Origin: a virus
Virus record (IMG/VR): IMGVR_UViG_3300025668_000661
Span: 1 to 31,316 of that record
Direction: 5' to 3' (one strand)
Length of the DNA: 31,316 nt
Shown here: positions 1 through 31,087 of the stretch, piece by piece
How positions within the stretch are numbered: the first letter of the stretch is position 1
How the letters are laid out: every line of letters begins with the position of its first letter
Notes under the pieces: generated by a model
The model's input: the letters and a program-made list of their open reading frames with translations, nothing else
Databases searched by the model: none
Told to the model about the DNA's origin: nothing
Program-made: the position numbers and the translations under genes

Positions 1-298
1 ATCGCAGTGTAGCATCGGGATGTTTGGCATAAACTTCTGCTGCTAGTGTATACCAACTTTGACTAAACTCTATATGCCCCTTTACTTCTGGCATAATAGC
101 TTCCATAGCAAGAACTTTCACTTGCGATGGCAGCGGATCTTTAGGACCAACTGTGCCGGCATTTGTACCTACATACCAATGTGTTTCTTTTGCAGCCATT
201 TCCCATGCTGCCTTGTGTCCTTTGTGTGGAGGATTGAATCTTCCAAATATAAGTCCTACTGTTTCACCTGGTGCTTCAAATAGTTGTCTTAGTTTCAT
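1..298 (-). CDS. Cytidylyltransferase-like nucleotidyltransferase, 3' end cut by window
   Basis: The gene starts with ATG at 298, overlapping the previous stop by one base (TAATG), and runs off the left edge after about 99 residues. Residues 15-28 read GLIFGRFNPPHKGH, the nucleotide-binding motif of the HxGH nucleotidyltransferase superfamily (NMN adenylyltransferase, phosphopantetheine adenylyltransferase and glycerol-phosphate cytidylyltransferase types). Such enzymes join a nucleotide to a phosphate-bearing substrate and release pyrophosphate. The second motif (ISSTxxR type) would lie outside the window, so the substrate cannot be assigned. The N-terminus MKLRQLFEA resembles the short T4 capsid-targeting peptide with a possible LxE/A cleavage site, so the protein may be packaged in the head. 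The superfamily is clear; the packaging is inference. Confidence 0.85.
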   Translation of the reverse strand, partial: MKLRQLFEAPGETVGLIFGRFNPPHKGHKAAWEMAAKETHWYVGTNAGTVGPKDPLPSQVKVLAMEAIMPEVKGHIEFSQSWYTLAAEVYAKHPDATLR

Positions 299-1086
299 TA
301 TGCTACGCCCGATCTATTATATGCTTCACGCCACTCTTCTTCTGACATAGGATAAACGTGTCCTGTTTCCCATCTTGCCATTGAAGTTGCTAGTGCAATA
401 GCAGCATCTTGATTTGCTAAAAAGTTAGCAACTGTTTCCTGAGTATCTATTCCTCTACTTTGCATATATCTTATATAACTTGTTACATTGTTATTGCCAG
501 TCCAAGTACTTAATGCATCAGCAAGTGTTTTTCCTCTATAAAGAGATCCATCTAGCAATGCAAATAGAGCTGCTGCGCCATTAATTTTATTTGGAAACAT
601 TGCTATTCTATGTCCTCCGCCAATTCTTGCGCCTGTGTCTTCTCCGCCAAAACGTCTTTGCCAACTTGCTGGATACATACCACCTGGATTGTTAAATCTT
701 ATTGTAGCAGCACGACTTTCTCTACCATTAAAACTTCCACTAGTTGGTTGTAAATCATCAACTGGTTGAATATCAATCTGTTGTCTTCTTGCTACTGCTG
801 TAGGGTTTTCTTTGGGTTCTGCTGTTTTTATTTGTTCTAGTTCTCTAGCTGACATAGAATTAGCAGGGGTGCTTATATTAAAGTCTGTTTTATATGCTGC
901 TACTGCTCTTGTAGTTCTTGGACCATATTTTCCATCTATACCTGTATTACCTACAGTGTATCCTAGTTCCTCTAGCTTGGTTTGTAAAGCACGTACAGCA
1001 TCCTTTTCTTCTTGCGGATAAGGAGGCCCGGCTTGTAATTCTACACCAACATTATTTTCTACAATTTTAAAATCATTGTATCTCAT
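298..1086 (-). CDS. Peptidoglycan-binding and lytic-enzyme-like virion protein
   Basis: The protein has 262 residues. I take ATG at 1086 because it forms an ATGA overlap with the stop of the upstream gene and gives the N-terminus MRYNDFKIVE, like that of its neighbour; an in-frame start at 1182 would lie deep in that gene. Residues about 28-70 form a PG_binding_1 repeat (VRALQTKLEELGY, then GIDGKYGPRT). A low-complexity linker follows. From about residue 128 the sequence has the NNPGG motif (132-136), a tryptophan shortly after it, and a downstream FPNKINGAAALFALL segment. This pattern is found in phage virion peptidoglycan hydrolases of the NNPGN (P5-like) type. It probably acts on the cell wall during entry or exit. 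The first ten residues resemble a T4 capsid-targeting peptide (cleavage after IVE). Catalysis is inferred from motif only. Confidence 0.8.
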   Translation of the reverse strand: MRYNDFKIVENNVGVELQAGPPYPQEEKDAVRALQTKLEELGYTVGNTGIDGKYGPRTTRAVAAYKTDFNISTPANSMSARELEQIKTAEPKENPTAVARRQQIDIQPVDDLQPTSGSFNGRESRAATIRFNNPGGMYPASWQRRFGGEDTGARIGGGHRIAMFPNKINGAAALFALLDGSLYRGKTLADALSTWTGNNNVTSYIRYMQSRGIDTQETVANFLANQDAAIALATSMARWETGHVYPMSEEEWREAYNRSGVA

Positions 1087-2216
1087 GACGGTGTCCATCT
1101 TTTTCTTGGCACTAATTTTACGTTTCCGTATTTTTTGCCCATATCGGCATAACGTACACGACCTTCGCCGTTGGTATCCCAAATATCGCCCTGCTCGCCT
1201 TCTAACTGATCAATAACTTCGTCTTTCATACGTTGTATCATTTTAACAAGTGAAAAAATACTATCTAGTGCATTATTATGTTGCTTGTTTAGATCGTTTA
1301 TTTTTTGTTGCTTTGGCGCACTAACTCTACTATTTTGTAGCCACTCGAAAAAATGCTGTTGACTTAAACTATCTAGTTGTTTGGCTTTTGCAGTTTGATT
1401 TACATAGGTGTAAATTATATTTTTTAGATCACTTAATCCTGCTACACTTTCTAAAAATGGATCAATTTTATTTTTAGCACTATTAGCAAATTGTTCAACT
1501 TTATCTATTGCACCTAAGTTTACATTAACTTTTTTGTTGTTGTAAACTGGACCTAATACAATTAAATCGTTTGTTTTGTCAAACGCACTAAAATCTTGCA
1601 TAGGTTCTTGTGAACTATCAGGTGCGCCAAATGTAGGAAAATATGCATGTCCTACTACCATTATTTTTGCACTGCTGATTTTCCTTCCAAGATCGCTATC
1701 TGCTTTTACATGATAACAAGTTTGAGATTTTGGATTAGGACAGAATGTATATACACCATTATCTTGTTCTGGTGGATTTAAAAACAGTCCGTCTGCGTAA
1801 ACATACCCAACAAAATCTTCGGGTGTAGCACGATCAAAAAATTCATAAAGACTAGCAAATTGATTACCAAATTCTTTACGTGCTTCAATTTCTTCTGGAG
1901 TTTTAGGCGAACCTGATTTATTAATAATAAAATCTGCTACTTCTTCTGGCGAAGTTGCAGCGGCACCTTTCGCCCAAGCATTATGTCCTGCTAATACAAG
2001 CGGCCCGCCCTTTTCAGCTCTACCCCAATATATTTGTGGATTGCCATCCCATTTCATGCGTATACTATTAGCACCGCTTTCTGTGGCAATATCTTTAAGA
2101 TGTTCTAAAGCTTCTATAGTTCCACTTACTCCATAGAAAAAAACTAGGTCTTCTAGATGATTAAATGCTCTACCTAATTGTTTTGCTTCTACTAAACGGA
2201 ACTCTTGATATCTCAT
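1083..2216 (-). CDS. Conserved T4-like phage protein with ligase-like KxDG motif
   Basis: This 377-residue protein begins MRYQEFRLVEA, closely matching the T4 internal-protein capsid-targeting peptide (basic and aromatic residues, then LxE/A). Residues 55-58 are KWDG, followed by a basic residue, like motif I (KxDG) of covalent nucleotidyltransferases such as DNA and RNA ligases. Residues 141-143 (ADG, in YVYADGLFL) could be motif III. EGRV at 351-354 and VKLV at 366-369 near the C-terminus resemble motifs IV and V. The gap between motif I and motif IV is much longer than in ordinary ligases and contains a helical, Gln/Lys-rich insertion at about 230-345. The family appears to be conserved among marine T4-like phages without a firm function. 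ATGA overlaps on both sides place it in one operon with its neighbours. A ligase-like fold is a hypothesis. Confidence 0.85.
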   Translation of the reverse strand: MRYQEFRLVEAKQLGRAFNHLEDLVFFYGVSGTIEALEHLKDIATESGANSIRMKWDGNPQIYWGRAEKGGPLVLAGHNAWAKGAAATSPEEVADFIINKSGSPKTPEEIEARKEFGNQFASLYEFFDRATPEDFVGYVYADGLFLNPPEQDNGVYTFCPNPKSQTCYHVKADSDLGRKISSAKIMVVGHAYFPTFGAPDSSQEPMQDFSAFDKTNDLIVLGPVYNNKKVNVNLGAIDKVEQFANSAKNKIDPFLESVAGLSDLKNIIYTYVNQTAKAKQLDSLSQQHFFEWLQNSRVSAPKQQKINDLNKQHNNALDSIFSLVKMIQRMKDEVIDQLEGEQGDIWDTNGEGRVRYADMGKKYGNVKLVPRKRWTPS

Positions 2217-2548
2217 TGATCTAATTCGTCCTTAATAATCTGCCCAGCTATAACACTACGTTCGCCTTTATTGATTAAAGTTTTTGGATCATGTGGTATT
2301 TTATATTTTTTACAATACTCTGTTATACCTGTATTGATCATCTTGTTTATAAGGTTACGATCAATTGCTTTGATATTTTTTTTGTTCAATTGAATATGGT
2401 CTGATATTGGAAAAAAATGTTTTCTATAAAACATAGGATCGTTACGCATAAAGATAACCAAATCTTCTCCTAAATCAAATGGCAACGGTTCAAAGATAGG
2501 TCTATCTTTGTCTATTTCCATATCATGAAATTCGTTAATTTTTACCAT
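2213..2548 (-). CDS. Small conserved hypothetical protein
   Basis: This is a 111-residue protein. ATG at 2548 overlaps the upstream stop by seven bases; an earlier in-frame start at 2563 would only add residues inside the neighbouring gene. It reads MVKINEFHDMEIDKDR, then a segment with VIFMRNDPMFYRKHFFP, and ends in a Lys-rich helical half. I recognise the FMRNDPxFYRK pattern as typical of small T4-like marine phage proteins of unknown function. There is no signal peptide, membrane segment or catalytic motif. The gene lies between the PG-binding head-associated protein and the KWDG protein in one tightly overlapping operon, which suggests a virion or head-related role. Its N-terminus (MVKINEFHDME) is a weaker match to a capsid-targeting peptide. 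Confidence 0.85.
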   Translation of the reverse strand: MVKINEFHDMEIDKDRPIFEPLPFDLGEDLVIFMRNDPMFYRKHFFPISDHIQLNKKNIKAIDRNLINKMINTGITEYCKKYKIPHDPKTLINKGERSVIAGQIIKDELDQ

Positions 2549-3834
2549 TTTCTGCAACTCCAATATCTTGCCTTATGACGCGGCCCCGGATTAGAACAGT
2601 TATGTCTTGCACGGAAACTTTTTCTACGTGCAGCATTACTTTTTTTGATTTTAGCACCTTTTTGTCCAAAGTTAACTTTGACTACATTGCCCTTTGGATT
2701 TTTAACGTATACTTTAAACTTCTTGGTATCGCCTTGCATAGGCTTGCCTAGTTTAACTTTACGACCTTGGTACTCTGCTTCATCTAATTCTTCGTCTTCG
2801 TTGTAATACAAAACTCCATAGTCTTCATAAAATTTATCATCATCGTCGTATGTTTGTTCTTCAATACTTTCTCGTGGTTCTGCTAATGTTCTTAATGCAT
2901 CCATTTCTTTTGACGTTAATACTATTCGCTCGTCAAATTCTACAGCTGCCAATGCTTGTGCAAATCGTCTGTCTCTTATTAGCTGTGCTATTTGTTGTCT
3001 TGCTTCTGCTTCAGATGGTCTTGAGTTTATATTACTAATAGTACTTGGAGCTGAAGGACCAGGGTCTCTCTCTATTCTAATTCCCTGACTAGTAAATAAA
3101 GGTCCTTCAGGATTTCCTGGAGGTGTACCAGATATAGGTGTTCTAGGCAATAATAACTTTGGATTGTTTCTATTACCAAAATCGCTTATAGTAACAACTT
3201 CGTGTGTTCTAATATATCTTCTATATAGTTCTGGAGTATAATCAAATACATAGTCATTTAATCGTCCAACTACTAGGCGTGTTACTTCTCTTGGATTTCC
3301 TGGTGTACCTACTTCATTTTCCCAGTCACCACCTTTGCGTAAGTTTCCAGAGTTGCGTGGGTTACCCATACTAGCTATAGCTGCTTGAGTTTGTCCTCCT
3401 GCTAATCCATCAACAGTAATACCGGCACGTCTTTGAAATGCTTTTAAAGCAGTTTCAGTTCCGCCTCCAAAAATACCATCAACTGGTCCCGGGTCAAATC
3501 CTAAGTCCTTTAGTTGCTGTTGCAATACTTTTACTTCGTCGCCTCTGTTACCTCTACGTAATGTAGCTTCTGATAATAAGGATTCGCTTATTTCTAACTC
3601 AAAATTGTCATGTCCTAAATCAAATAATCTCATGGTTATTTCCTCTACAAGTTCTTCTAATCTGTTTTCGTTAATAGTATTATGTAAATTATATTCTATT
3701 CCGCTACCGTTGTCGTAGTCAAAGGAATATGCTTCGGATATGCTTTCTGTAAGTATTCCGGTATTAATTTCTAAATTTTCATAAACTTTTTGTGTGTTTG
3801 TTTGCTGAGGAAATAAAATTGTAACAGTGTGCAT
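2542..3834 (-). CDS. PG-binding protein with basic C-terminal domain, probable processed head protein
   Basis: The protein has 430 residues. An acidic N-terminal region (1-89) ends in SLLSEA and is followed by a PG_binding_1 domain at about 95-155 (RGDEVKVLQQQLKDLGF, then VDGIFGGGTE). The middle region is Pro/Arg-rich and probably flexible. An acidic stretch ends in LDEA at 350-353. The last 78 residues are strongly basic and end in a Cys/Trp/Arg-rich module (RHNCSNPGPR, then RYWSCRKW) that I recognise from T4-like marine phage proteins. The LSE/A and LDE/A sites match the (L/I)xE specificity of the T4 gp21 prohead protease, so the protein may be cut into an acidic propeptide, a PG-binding core and a basic DNA-binding-like tail. 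The start is ATG at 3834 behind GAGGAG. Processing is inferred. Confidence 0.85.
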   Translation of the reverse strand: MHTVTILFPQQTNTQKVYENLEINTGILTESISEAYSFDYDNGSGIEYNLHNTINENRLEELVEEITMRLFDLGHDNFELEISESLLSEATLRRGNRGDEVKVLQQQLKDLGFDPGPVDGIFGGGTETALKAFQRRAGITVDGLAGGQTQAAIASMGNPRNSGNLRKGGDWENEVGTPGNPREVTRLVVGRLNDYVFDYTPELYRRYIRTHEVVTISDFGNRNNPKLLLPRTPISGTPPGNPEGPLFTSQGIRIERDPGPSAPSTISNINSRPSEAEARQQIAQLIRDRRFAQALAAVEFDERIVLTSKEMDALRTLAEPRESIEEQTYDDDDKFYEDYGVLYYNEDEELDEAEYQGRKVKLGKPMQGDTKKFKVYVKNPKGNVVKVNFGQKGAKIKKSNAARRKSFRARHNCSNPGPRHKARYWSCRKW

Positions 3835-27968: not shown

Positions 27969-27976
27969 TATTTATC
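27969..27976 (-). promoter_or_regulatory. T4-type late promoter
   Basis: GATAAATACTAAAAA on the minus strand, overlapping the TGA stop of the subtilase gene. Predicted +1 is 27963, giving a 14-base leader with CGGAG to ATG 27949. Confidence 0.75.
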
Positions 27977-29561
27977 AAGTTCTAAGTGTAAGTCCATTAC
28001 GAGGCTTGAGTAAATTTGACATTGCAAAAGGAACTTTGTTATATCTGTTAAACATAATTCTATTTGGCGAACCGTGTAAACTACGAGTTTGATCGTAGTC
28101 AACTATACTTGCTGTATCATATATTATTCCATCTACCGCATCATCTTCGATTATTTGTTTTGCTTGTGCAGGTGTAAGACTTGAATCTTTTTGTAATAAA
28201 CATGCTATAACACCTGCAACTTGAGGTGACGCCATACTAGTGCCACTTATATTAGTTTGTCTAAAGCTGCTATTTTTTGAATACTCTGCATCAGCAAATT
28301 TATTTGTGTTACTTGTACAACTCATAATGCTTGAACCAGCAGCCCATATATTACAACCAGGTCCAGTGCAACTACTTGTAGAACGTGTATCCAAACTTCC
28401 AAATGTAGAAGAATTAATATTTCCTACTATCATTGCATCATTACTAAACGGGCTACTACCTCTATGATAAAAACTATCTCCTGACCCTGGACGATTGACA
28501 GTATTGTTATAATCAGGACCGTCCGGTACATCAATTTTAAATCTACTATTTCCAGCAGCGATACAAACATGTATTCCGTCGTCTATCATATCCTGAACAT
28601 CAGCATCAACACTAGCAACACGAACAGGCATTCTAGTTGTGTTGTTGTCACCGAACACAGGAATAATAATTCCTACAGCACTTTCCAACGTTGCGCTCGA
28701 ACTGCTATAATCGGTAGCAAAGTCCCATGCAGTGCCTCTATAATTTCCTGTTGTGATATCGGCAGGGTCTAAGTTGTATCCATACCCCCAACTCATATTT
28801 ACTACAGTTGGTCTTCCAGCATCGGCACCACTTTTTGAGTTATGCCACAGTCTAATAGTATCAAAGATATCACTTACACTAATACCTGTACCGGCGTCAT
28901 CTGCGCCTTCTAATCCGCTAACTTTTTGCGAATATACTCGAGCCCCTTTAGCCCATCCAAATGTCAACCCTGCTGCAATACCTCCACAATGTGTTCCATG
29001 CCCATCTGTATCTCTGTCGTGGTTAGCATTTTGCGTACCACTTACTCCGCTTGCTGTATACCAATTTATAGATCTATATCGTGTATTGCCAGCAGCATCT
29101 TGAAACTCTGGATGATCAGCTTGTAAGCCGCTGTCTTGTATTACAACATCTACGCCTTCGCCGTCAAAACTATAATTAATAGTATCCCCATCTGCGTTAT
29201 TGCCAGTAAAATCATACGTTTCACTCATATGTCGAAACAAGCCCCAGTTTTGAAAATCGCCGCCGTCACTTGTTGTTTTTGTAAAATTTCCAACTTGTTT
29301 TGCATTAAATCCTATACTAATGTCAGTACGATATTCTGCAGGAATTTCTACTGCTTCAACCCGAGGGTCTCTACGGATCATTGCAGCTTCTTCGTCGGTT
29401 AATGAAAAATAAGTTTGACGTCTACTTCCTGCTCTAGGATGTGCTATATCTACTTTCCTGTTAGGAATATTATCTAACAACGTATATCTAGTAAGATCAT
29501 CTTGTATTTGATCTATAGTTGTTCCTCTGTTGGCTATAACTGTATAGACCTTTTCAGTCAT
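27975..29561 (-). CDS. Subtilisin-like serine protease (S8) in the fibre cluster
   Basis: The 528-residue protein has a complete S8 catalytic triad: Asp143 in VVIQDSGL, His188 in DGHGTHCGG, and Ser442 in GTSMASPQVAG, with the oxyanion Asn338 in IAAGN. Residues 1-95 (YTVIANRGTT, then LTDEEAAMIRRDPRV) look like an I9-type inhibitor propeptide. No signal peptide is seen. It lies between tail-fibre genes in a late unit and overlaps the upstream gene by one base (TAATG). It may process fibre proteins, or may be a virion component that digests host surface proteins. ATG 29561 is chosen over an in-frame upstream start at 29600. Peptidase S8 genes occur in other marine T4-like phages, but their role is not established. 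Confidence 0.93.
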   Translation of the reverse strand: MTEKVYTVIANRGTTIDQIQDDLTRYTLLDNIPNRKVDIAHPRAGSRRQTYFSLTDEEAAMIRRDPRVEAVEIPAEYRTDISIGFNAKQVGNFTKTTSDGGDFQNWGLFRHMSETYDFTGNNADGDTINYSFDGEGVDVVIQDSGLQADHPEFQDAAGNTRYRSINWYTASGVSGTQNANHDRDTDGHGTHCGGIAAGLTFGWAKGARVYSQKVSGLEGADDAGTGISVSDIFDTIRLWHNSKSGADAGRPTVVNMSWGYGYNLDPADITTGNYRGTAWDFATDYSSSSATLESAVGIIIPVFGDNNTTRMPVRVASVDADVQDMIDDGIHVCIAAGNSRFKIDVPDGPDYNNTVNRPGSGDSFYHRGSSPFSNDAMIVGNINSSTFGSLDTRSTSSCTGPGCNIWAAGSSIMSCTSNTNKFADAEYSKNSSFRQTNISGTSMASPQVAGVIACLLQKDSSLTPAQAKQIIEDDAVDGIIYDTASIVDYDQTRSLHGSPNRIMFNRYNKVPFAMSNLLKPRNGLTLRT

Positions 29562-31087
29562 TATAAATTGCTCCAGTTGCTTCCATCGTAGAATTGACAA
29601 CGACCAGCATCGCTGTTTGCTATTAACATACCAAATACTGCTGAGATACCATTCCTTGTACTATTATCCATAACTGGTAATTGTAAAGGTCTAGGTGAGT
29701 TTATATTAGGTACATACATAAATCCGCCATTACCAGCGCCGTCTGCATTACTACTATAAAATGCTAATGTTTCTGCGTTGTCGTCATAGTACATATCACC
29801 TGTTGCACCAGAGATACCGCTTGGTGCGCCAGAGCTTGCAGGTACTTGGAATAATCCTGCAATTACATCTACTCTTCCTGTAAGTGATGCATTTAAAACA
29901 ATATCGCTACTACTTTCTAGTGTTGGTGTTCCTGTACTACCGCTATCAACTCTATCAGCTGTTATAGTACCTGTTACATCTAAGTCACCTGTGATATTAG
30001 CACCACTTGGTATATTCATAACATTGCCATCTGACGTGTCAATGTTAAAACCGGCAAGTGCTATTAGTCCACCACTCGGTGATACAGTAACAATAGTACC
30101 GCCTGCTAAATTTGTAAACAAATTTCCACTTACTGTTAAACTACCAGCAATTGCACTAGCACCTGATCCTGTAATATCTATATCAGTTGCTTCAAGTGAT
30201 CCTATTGTTGTTAAACCACCATTACTAACAGTAAGGTTATTTTGAAAATTTACTGCTACGTTGGTTGTTGCGCCTCTATCAGTAACACTTTGTAAGTCAT
30301 CTTCTTCTTCAGTTATGCCGCCGCCTGAACCTTGTTCATCGGCTGCCGATGTCCAGTTAGCACCATTCCATTTTAAAACATCACCAGTATTAGGTGTGCC
30401 TGTATTTACATCACCTAAGTTACCTAATGAATAAGTGCTTAAATCTACTGACGGTGCTTCCCCGGTATAATCAATTTGTATTCTACCTTGCCCGTTAATA
30501 GCAACACCAATATCATCACCGGCAACAATTTCTGGAAACGCAACTTGGAATTCACCAGTGTTGTTATCATAGGTAAATGCACCAGTTCCACTGTCGGCTA
30601 TTTTTGAAGCAGAAAGATCTGTTAAAAAACCGCCTCCGCCGCCTCCGGTTATAGTTTCAAATTGAAACTTTATATCTGATCCTTCTAATTTTCTAACAAT
30701 TAAAGTATCGCCGTCTGATGCTCCATCTAAACCTTCTAAGTCTGTTTGGTCTTGAATTCTGCTTACACCAAACTCTGTTGGTTTATTTTGAATAAAAGCC
30801 GGACTATTTTGGTTTTCTTCTGTCCAATTTGCTTTCGTCTGAGAAGTTAACGGCACAACTCCGTTTATTGTTAAACTTGTAGTATTAACTTCACTTAATG
30901 ATGTTACACCTGTTACACTAAGACCGCCTGTGATTGTTGCGTCTGCACCAACTGACAGCGCACTCGACAATGATAAGTCACTTAGATTAACAATACCTGA
31001 TCCTTCTAAGTCAATACTATCGCCTGTTGGTAGTTCTTTTATTTTACTATCAGTTGTATCTACTACTAGTGGAAATCTATTTGCCAT
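29561..31087 (-). CDS. Tail-fibre-like structural protein
   Basis: A 508-residue protein, low in Cys and rich in Gly, Thr, Ser and Asn. Residues 1-60 (VVDTTDSKIKELPTGDSIDL, then SGIVNLSDLSL) form the usual N-terminal part of T4-like fibre-type proteins. The middle has repeated short hydrophobic strands alternating with GS-rich turns (VTGVTSLSEVNTTSLTINGV, NLTVSNGGLTTIGSLEATDI), likely a triple beta-helix. A glycine run (ITGGGGGGF) lies near residue 150. The C-terminus (MLIANSDAGRCQFYDGSNW) is a short tip domain. It is preceded by a perfect late promoter core, and its stop overlaps the protease gene. No enzyme motif. Confidence 0.88.
   Translation of the reverse strand: MANRFPLVVDTTDSKIKELPTGDSIDLEGSGIVNLSDLSLSSALSVGADATITGGLSVTGVTSLSEVNTTSLTINGVVPLTSQTKANWTEENQNSPAFIQNKPTEFGVSRIQDQTDLEGLDGASDGDTLIVRKLEGSDIKFQFETITGGGGGGFLTDLSASKIADSGTGAFTYDNNTGEFQVAFPEIVAGDDIGVAINGQGRIQIDYTGEAPSVDLSTYSLGNLGDVNTGTPNTGDVLKWNGANWTSAADEQGSGGGITEEEDDLQSVTDRGATTNVAVNFQNNLTVSNGGLTTIGSLEATDIDITGSGASAIAGSLTVSGNLFTNLAGGTIVTVSPSGGLIALAGFNIDTSDGNVMNIPSGANITGDLDVTGTITADRVDSGSTGTPTLESSSDIVLNASLTGRVDVIAGLFQVPASSGAPSGISGATGDMYYDDNAETLAFYSSNADGAGNGGFMYVPNINSPRPLQLPVMDNSTRNGISAVFGMLIANSDAGRCQFYDGSNWSNL

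Follow-up and report, generated by a model that had tools for sequence, protein, structure and literature searches.

Three neighbouring proteins encoded in a viral contig of 31,316 bases (IMG/VR record IMGVR_UViG_3300025668_000661), which resembles a fragment of a T4-like phage genome and is called the window here in its full length, probably begin with capsid-targeting propeptides of the phage T4 type. These short N-terminal tags would be cut by the prohead protease gp21 after (L/I)xE, and the proteins behind them would be injected with the DNA. The tags open overlapping genes of the minus strand and read MKLRQLFEA (at 298), MRYNDFKIVEN (at 1086) and MRYQEFRLVEA (at 2216). The second start is the ATG at 1086 according to homologues; the open reading frame (ORF) listing began at an upstream TTG at 1182. 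All three tags are closed by the motif of the T4 prohead protease (LFE, IVE and LVE), followed by A or N, and their front halves carry a hydrophobic or aromatic pair three residues apart, Y3/F6 in two of them and L3/L6 in the third. With the T4 capsid-targeting sequence MKTYQEFIAEA they have YxEF or YNDF in common as well as the (L/I)xE ending. The original prediction, made from the letters of the DNA, that these adjacent genes carry a short common pattern ahead of unrelated domains was borne out: the likeness is well above chance, and Pfam and phrog matches place behind it a cytidylyltransferase-like domain (CTP_transf_like), a peptidoglycan hydrolase (PG_binding_1 plus a domain with no Pfam match) and a KxDG protein (DUF6267 with KWDG). 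As was then proposed, three of the four proteins are best read as carrying a T4-like capsid-targeting peptide. The fourth N-terminus, MVKINEFHDMEID (at 2548; gene 2213-2548), had been put forward as a weaker member of the group, and this held for the front half only. No domain was recognized behind it, the gp21-type cut site (L/I)xE is missing from it, and its homologues retain M-x-[KRL]-hydrophobic-x-[ED]-hydrophobic with no consistent (L/I)xE. Without the cleavage half, its assignment as a full capsid-targeting sequence is unsupported.

Aligned in relatives, the N-termini proved to be kept as a pattern and not as a sequence. Homologues of the DUF6267 protein were found at 80 viral-contig loci, and tags were compared over about 76-80 loci; as the homologues share descent, the tag counts are not counts of independent events. 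The DUF6267 domain begins LGRAFNHLED, and the part upstream of it varies freely in sequence and length (MRYQELIEA, MRFNEFRRITEA, MRLREFFIKEA, MRAFEFIVEA, MKIAEIITES) and retains a single pattern, M[KR]-hydrophobic-x-[EDQN]-hydrophobic-x(0-4)-E, in which L or I before the Glu is not demanded. This pattern is matched by 29 of 34 distinct DUF6267 tags (0.24 expected from shuffling), and [LI]xE is present in 31 of the 34 (7.2 expected). For the cytidylyltransferase, 35 distinct tags were obtained from 80 loci; [LI]xE occurs in 33/34 (11.9 expected from shuffling), the strict pattern in 22/34 and a loose pattern in 32/34. P3, the third residue ahead of the cut, is L or I in 30 of 32 distinct DUF6267 tags and in 33 of 33 distinct cytidylyltransferase tags, against an L+I background of 14%, and the residue after the cut (P1') is mostly Ala. 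The varying length of the DUF6267 tag is a stronger argument than the counts. Tags of the hydrolase homologues read MRFKELFEA, MRFSEINEA, MRFIELFEE and MKLRELFED. Identical tags are encoded by several synonymous codings, so the constraint acts on the protein, which rules out a shared DNA element as the cause of the likeness; shared ancestry of whole genes is ruled out by the unrelated domains.

Several apparent exceptions among the DUF6267 proteins have the tag farther upstream, before a fused basic module (MRLRELLSE↓K-WSxKYKxSINC...GFSQKAHCAGRK; the arrow marks the cut). The module WSxKYKxSINCxNPKGFSQKAHCAGRK stands directly after the tag and is fused ahead of DUF6267 at loci L050, L051, L069, L070 and L077, and tag and module together also head other proteins at other loci. 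Tag-like starts of DUF6267 proteins were found elsewhere, in C48C1, Melnitz and HTVC008M (LDFKNFITE↓Q, INFSKYITE↓D, MYNDLLVE↓D).

The pattern is not confined to these families. In nine genomes or fragments of the clade, it marks 38 of the 1246 gene starts chosen and one of 5631 internal Met residues; since the set includes some close relatives and the pattern was composed after examples had been seen, the genome-wide figures and p-values given here and below are descriptive. Leaving out the DUF6267 and cytidylyltransferase families reduces the matches to 23, of which 20 have (L/I)xE. Further tagged proteins of the clade include more hydrolases, a possible metallopeptidase and small basic proteins. 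None of the 124 gene starts of Felix O1 matches. No gene start of the window clade was matched by a single pattern in the T4 register, the tag of this clade being shorter at the front. A protein of G008 (39812-40594) tagged MRYKEVIPEQ... contains LYHSTS...ISFSR and looks by eye like an ADP-ribosyltransferase (cf. T4 Alt); it has no Pfam match and no such assignment is claimed.

The head genes of relatives provide a link to the prohead. Genes for gp21 (PF03420), gp22 and gp23 are present in the three largest relatives. The gp23 propeptide ends in FLTE↓A (T4), FLSE↓A (Melnitz) or YL[SA]E↓[SAT] (window clade). All N-termini of the gp22 scaffold recovered from 80 gp22 loci (L242-L321) read M[LI]DALKxLFEN, e.g. 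MLDALKQLFEN, and a small protein of the core operon, encoded between the portal and gp21 in the head operons (also in G001 and G002), reads MILRELFY. Both closely resemble cargo tags such as MKLRQLFEN and MLLRELFEA, just as T4 gp22 (MLKEQLIAEA) resembles the T4 internal protein start MKTYQEFIAEA. In the T4 sequence, residues 4 and 7 direct targeting and residues 8 and 10 control cutting (PMC9026906). Our hypothesis is that the cargo tag may copy the assembly motif of the core proteins themselves. We tentatively extend this to the possibility that the tag is a portable mimic of scaffold and core N-termini, which would serve aquatic T4-like phages as an all-purpose address for their modular payload of injected enzymes, including a slot in which peptidoglycan hydrolase cassettes are swapped.

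Published virion proteomes of cyanophages were compared with the tags; what is said here of virions refers to the tables and annotations available from these papers. For S-CREM2 (Kyanoviridae), for which 52 virion proteins have been published (PMC10665884, Table 3), all 219 annotated genes were translated and their starts scored with the T4-register motif. The motif was found at 6/219 gene starts and at 0/852 internal Met residues, and five of the six are listed virion proteins (p=0.003): an S-adenosylmethionine (SAM) hydrolase (MKDFDSFLEEF), a 78-residue protein (MKDLHSFLTEQ), an APH-like kinase (MKRFDAFLTEE), gp136 (MQTFSMFFSED) and the cytidylyltransferase (MKNFSSFLTEA). Pooling three proteomes gave 7 observed against 2.29 expected (p=0.003). 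Tagged homologues of the cytidylyltransferase are reported in the virions of S-CREM2, S-SZBM1 and S-SCSM1 (PMC10665884, PMC9146016, PMC9602691); that of S-SZBM1 (MRFRQFIIEA) stands in the virion table and the NMNAT of S-SCSM1 (MKSFLQFLKEA) is annotated as a virion protein. The DUF6267 homologues of these phages (S-CREM2 gp87, S-SZBM1_141 and SSCSM1_257) are untagged and missing from the virion lists. The same preparations thus yielded the tagged family and not the untagged one. The annotated N-terminus of S-CREM2 gp12 (OR473000 10313-7704), a Cas9-like nuclease listed in virions, has a tag-like LRFASFMAEA at residues 17-26.

In the mechanism that we propose, the hydrophobic and acidic front half of the tag would bind the internal core (gp22 scaffold and small core proteins) during prohead formation, and the core-bound enzymes would become trapped inside the prohead. 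The protease gp21 would then cut after (L/I)xE, removing a tag of 8-10 residues and freeing the enzymes, which would stay with the DNA and enter the host at infection. There, the nucleotidyltransferase pair might act early on host nucleotides or RNA and the peptidoglycan hydrolase might aid DNA entry, functions that we hold with less confidence than the targeting. The homologues give good support to packaging; cleavage is predicted from the motif and injection from the analogy with T4 (PMC9026906, PMC3012670). For the window phage, core binding, cleavage and injection are what we infer.

Several observations weigh against this mechanism. The tag register of the window clade is one residue shorter than that of T4. 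A profile search of the 31-kb window gave no match to gp21 (PF03420), and the head genes are absent from it, so that gp21 and gp23 of the window phage itself are not seen. None of the three T4-register matches of S-SZBM1 is in its virion list, and of its tagged proteins only the cytidylyltransferase, matched by a looser pattern, is listed there; one T4-register match of S-SCSM1 was undetected in the virion proteome, and a small tagged family, SSCSM1_30 and S-SZBM1_191, was undetected in two proteomes. The authors of the S-CREM2 study also noted that co-purified contaminants might account for some of the virion enzymes (PMC10665884). The small family is conserved, starts MK[ST]FK[SQ]F[LM]SESVNISGDFNGNLY and is encoded in the structural region.

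Among other explanations, the one that survives best, though we consider it unlikely, is that the tag does target the prohead core and that the cargo acts there, in core assembly or packaging, with no injection. The T4 internal proteins are also part of the core and several tagged proteins of the clade are small and basic, but no role in assembly is known for enzymes such as nucleotidyltransferases, a SAM hydrolase, a kinase and a Cas9-like nuclease (S-CREM2). It is less probable still that the tag, instead of being a gp21-cut signal for the head core, docks proteins on the tail, baseplate, portal or a shared assembly complex. Peptidoglycan hydrolases are often components of tails or baseplates, and the published proteomes, as tabulated, do not separate head from tail; however, the (L/I)xE ending agrees with the cut site of the gp23 propeptide, gp22 and the head operon's small core protein begin like the front half of the tag, and the related T4 tag is an experimentally proven head signal (PMC9026906). 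A functionless likeness produced by chance and composition bias (Lys/Arg, and codons rich in A behind the start) is hardly credible, although AT-rich phages often have MK or MR starts and the tags are short, since it was rejected by internal-Met, within-peptide and column-permutation controls (swapping residues within each N-terminal position, which preserves the bias, gave a mean of 1.35 and a maximum of 6 matches in 300 permutations against 38 observed), (L/I)xE is nearly universal without being demanded by the pattern, and most genomes have their matches on the same families.

Capsid targeting of the cargo is also in keeping with the evolution of the hydrolase gene. In locus L003, whose DUF6267 protein is 99% identical to that of the window, two flanks align with the window, one up to position 820 (96% identity) and the other from position 304 (92%); between them, a PF07486 cell wall hydrolase domain stands in place of the window domain (blastn, Pfam). 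The tag and PG_binding_1 are kept in the L003 hydrolase gene and the catalytic part is changed. In further loci the slot holds PF07486 in L004 and others, a phage lysozyme (PF00959) in L024 and an SLT transglycosylase in L010, whose start MKLLELTNAF matches the tag only in part. In this exchange among close relatives PG_binding_1 stays, and the tag stays in most. A locus with a constant tag and swapping domains is what should be expected of a slot for targeted cargo. The C-terminal domain of the window hydrolase ('NNPGGMYPASW') has no Pfam match, and only two relatives were found in the scan of sequence collections; a structure model built from two sequences had a mean predicted local distance difference test score (pLDDT) of 53 and was not used to name it.

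Similar cut sites stand inside the multidomain protein encoded at 2542-3834, with LLSE↓A before PG_binding_1 and LDE↓A before a C-terminal basic module. Upstream of this module, 17 of 24 distinct sequences have [LI]xE within 5 residues and most of the others have VDEA. Release of modules by gp21 cutting at these junctions is possible, judging by the motifs. Clade proteins composed of the basic modules have homologues, S-CREM2 gp137 and gp160 and S-SZBM1_139, that are virion proteins too. The module (...RKSFRARHNC...KARYWSCRKW, phrog_7595) occurs in the window, in L002-L079, in C48C1 and in Pelagibacter phages, usually after [LI/V]DE↓A or LEE↓A.

The function of the DUF6267 protein was approached through its motif and fold. 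K55, W56, D57 and G58 are invariant in 38 DUF6267 sequences and correspond to the KxDG motif of covalent nucleotidyltransferases (ligases and capping enzymes). In the AlphaFold2 model the mean pLDDT is 88.5 and residues 1-15 are below 50; a disordered tag before an ordered domain fits a removable tag. Fold matches include proteins of about 590-600 aa from S-PM2 and uncultured phages whose annotation is cytidyltransferase-like, a hint that the DUF6267 protein and the cytidylyltransferase may be functionally linked. The best fold match in the PDB, T4 RNA ligase 1, is non-significant (E=0.27, poor superposition), and the protein was not assigned as an RNA ligase; other weak fold matches were a viral RNA ligase (0.017) and a capping enzyme (0.09), and a comparison with PDB sequences gave no significant match. 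The KxDG motif and the weak fold matches suggest that DUF6267 is a covalent nucleotidyltransferase, as a prediction from motif and model. No mention of DUF6267 was found in the literature searched here and below, which was mainly open-access.

The genes of the cluster (Table 1) overlap start to stop (ATGA or TAATG), an arrangement as in one operon; the last of them runs off the contig end and is incomplete. Clamp loader, PhoH, ThyX, ClpA-like ATPase and tail and fibre genes are recognizable among the other ORFs of the window. An ORF for a subtilisin-like serine protease (27975-29600; DSG, GHGTHCGG and SGTSMASP motifs) is surrounded by tail- and fibre-like genes.

Table 1 Features of the tagged-gene cluster in the window (↓, predicted cut)
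Feature	Positions	Strand	Basis
Cytidylyltransferase-like (NMNAT-like) protein, end missing	2..298	-	PF01467 21.1 bits (cut-off 21), phrog_3041, phrog_395; FGRFNPPHKGH motif
Tag MKLRQLFE↓A	275..298	-	Predicted cut after E8, P3 = L; sequence and tag counts in homologues
Peptidoglycan hydrolase-like protein	298..1086	-	Tag, PG_binding_1 (PF01471 E=2.7e-9), C-terminal 'NNPGGMYPASW' domain
Tag MRYNDFKIVE↓N	1057..1086	-	Predicted cut after E10, P3 = I; sequence and homologue tags
PG_binding_1 domain, residues 29-71 of hydrolase	874..1002	-	Pfam
Exchangeable catalytic cassette of hydrolase	304..819	-	blastn and Pfam against L003
DUF6267 protein with KxDG motif (K55-W-D-G58)	1083..2216	-	PF19782 67.7 bits, cut-off 27
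Tag MRYQEFRLVE↓A	2187..2216	-	Predicted cut after E10, P3 = L; disordered in structure model
Small protein, N-terminus MVKINEF, front half of tag pattern only	2213..2548	-	No family match
Multidomain protein, no N-terminal tag	2542..3834	-	PG_binding_1 (97-153), C-terminal basic module (346-430)

The closest known system is that of the T4 internal proteins IPI, IPII and IPIII, in which a short N-terminal peptide (MKTYQEFIAEA) with an (L/I)xE cut site, hydrophobic residues three apart and an acidic or amide residue between them is likewise carried by unrelated proteins. The window tags differ in being one or more residues shorter in front (Y3/F6 instead of Y4/F7), in carrying enzymes and not small anti-restriction proteins, and in that their processing is predicted only. 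The T4 Alt ADP-ribosyltransferase modifies host components after injection. Like the predicted window cargo, Alt is a head-packaged enzyme with a short N-terminal propeptide removed by gp21 (PMC9026906), although it belongs to another enzyme family and is additionally cut at the C-terminus. The virion NMNAT/cytidylyltransferases of S-CREM2, S-SZBM1 and S-SCSM1 are homologous to the window enzyme and have similar N-termini; unlike in the window, the DUF6267 proteins of these phages are untagged and outside the virion lists, and the available parts of the papers give virion presence and no targeting signal. Highly diverse internal proteins with capsid-targeting sequences are already known from T-even phages (PMC3012670), whereas our literature search found no such sequence on marine phage or cyanophage cargo, T4-centred reviews aside. 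The mechanism is therefore known; the signal in marine and cyanophage-type T4-like phages has apparently not been described before.

Virions of cyanophages have repeatedly been reported to contain NMNAT-like enzymes, kinases and nucleases, and the papers do not decide whether these are contaminants or by what route they enter (PMC10665884, PMC9602691). A sequence signal that predicts packaged proteins makes the contaminant question testable. The tags suggest that the window virus may carry a ready-made set of enzymes inside its particle and deliver it with the DNA. The payload of uncultured aquatic T4-like phages would be readable from DNA alone, and T4 capsid targeting would be extended from the small internal proteins of coliphages to a payload of enzymes.

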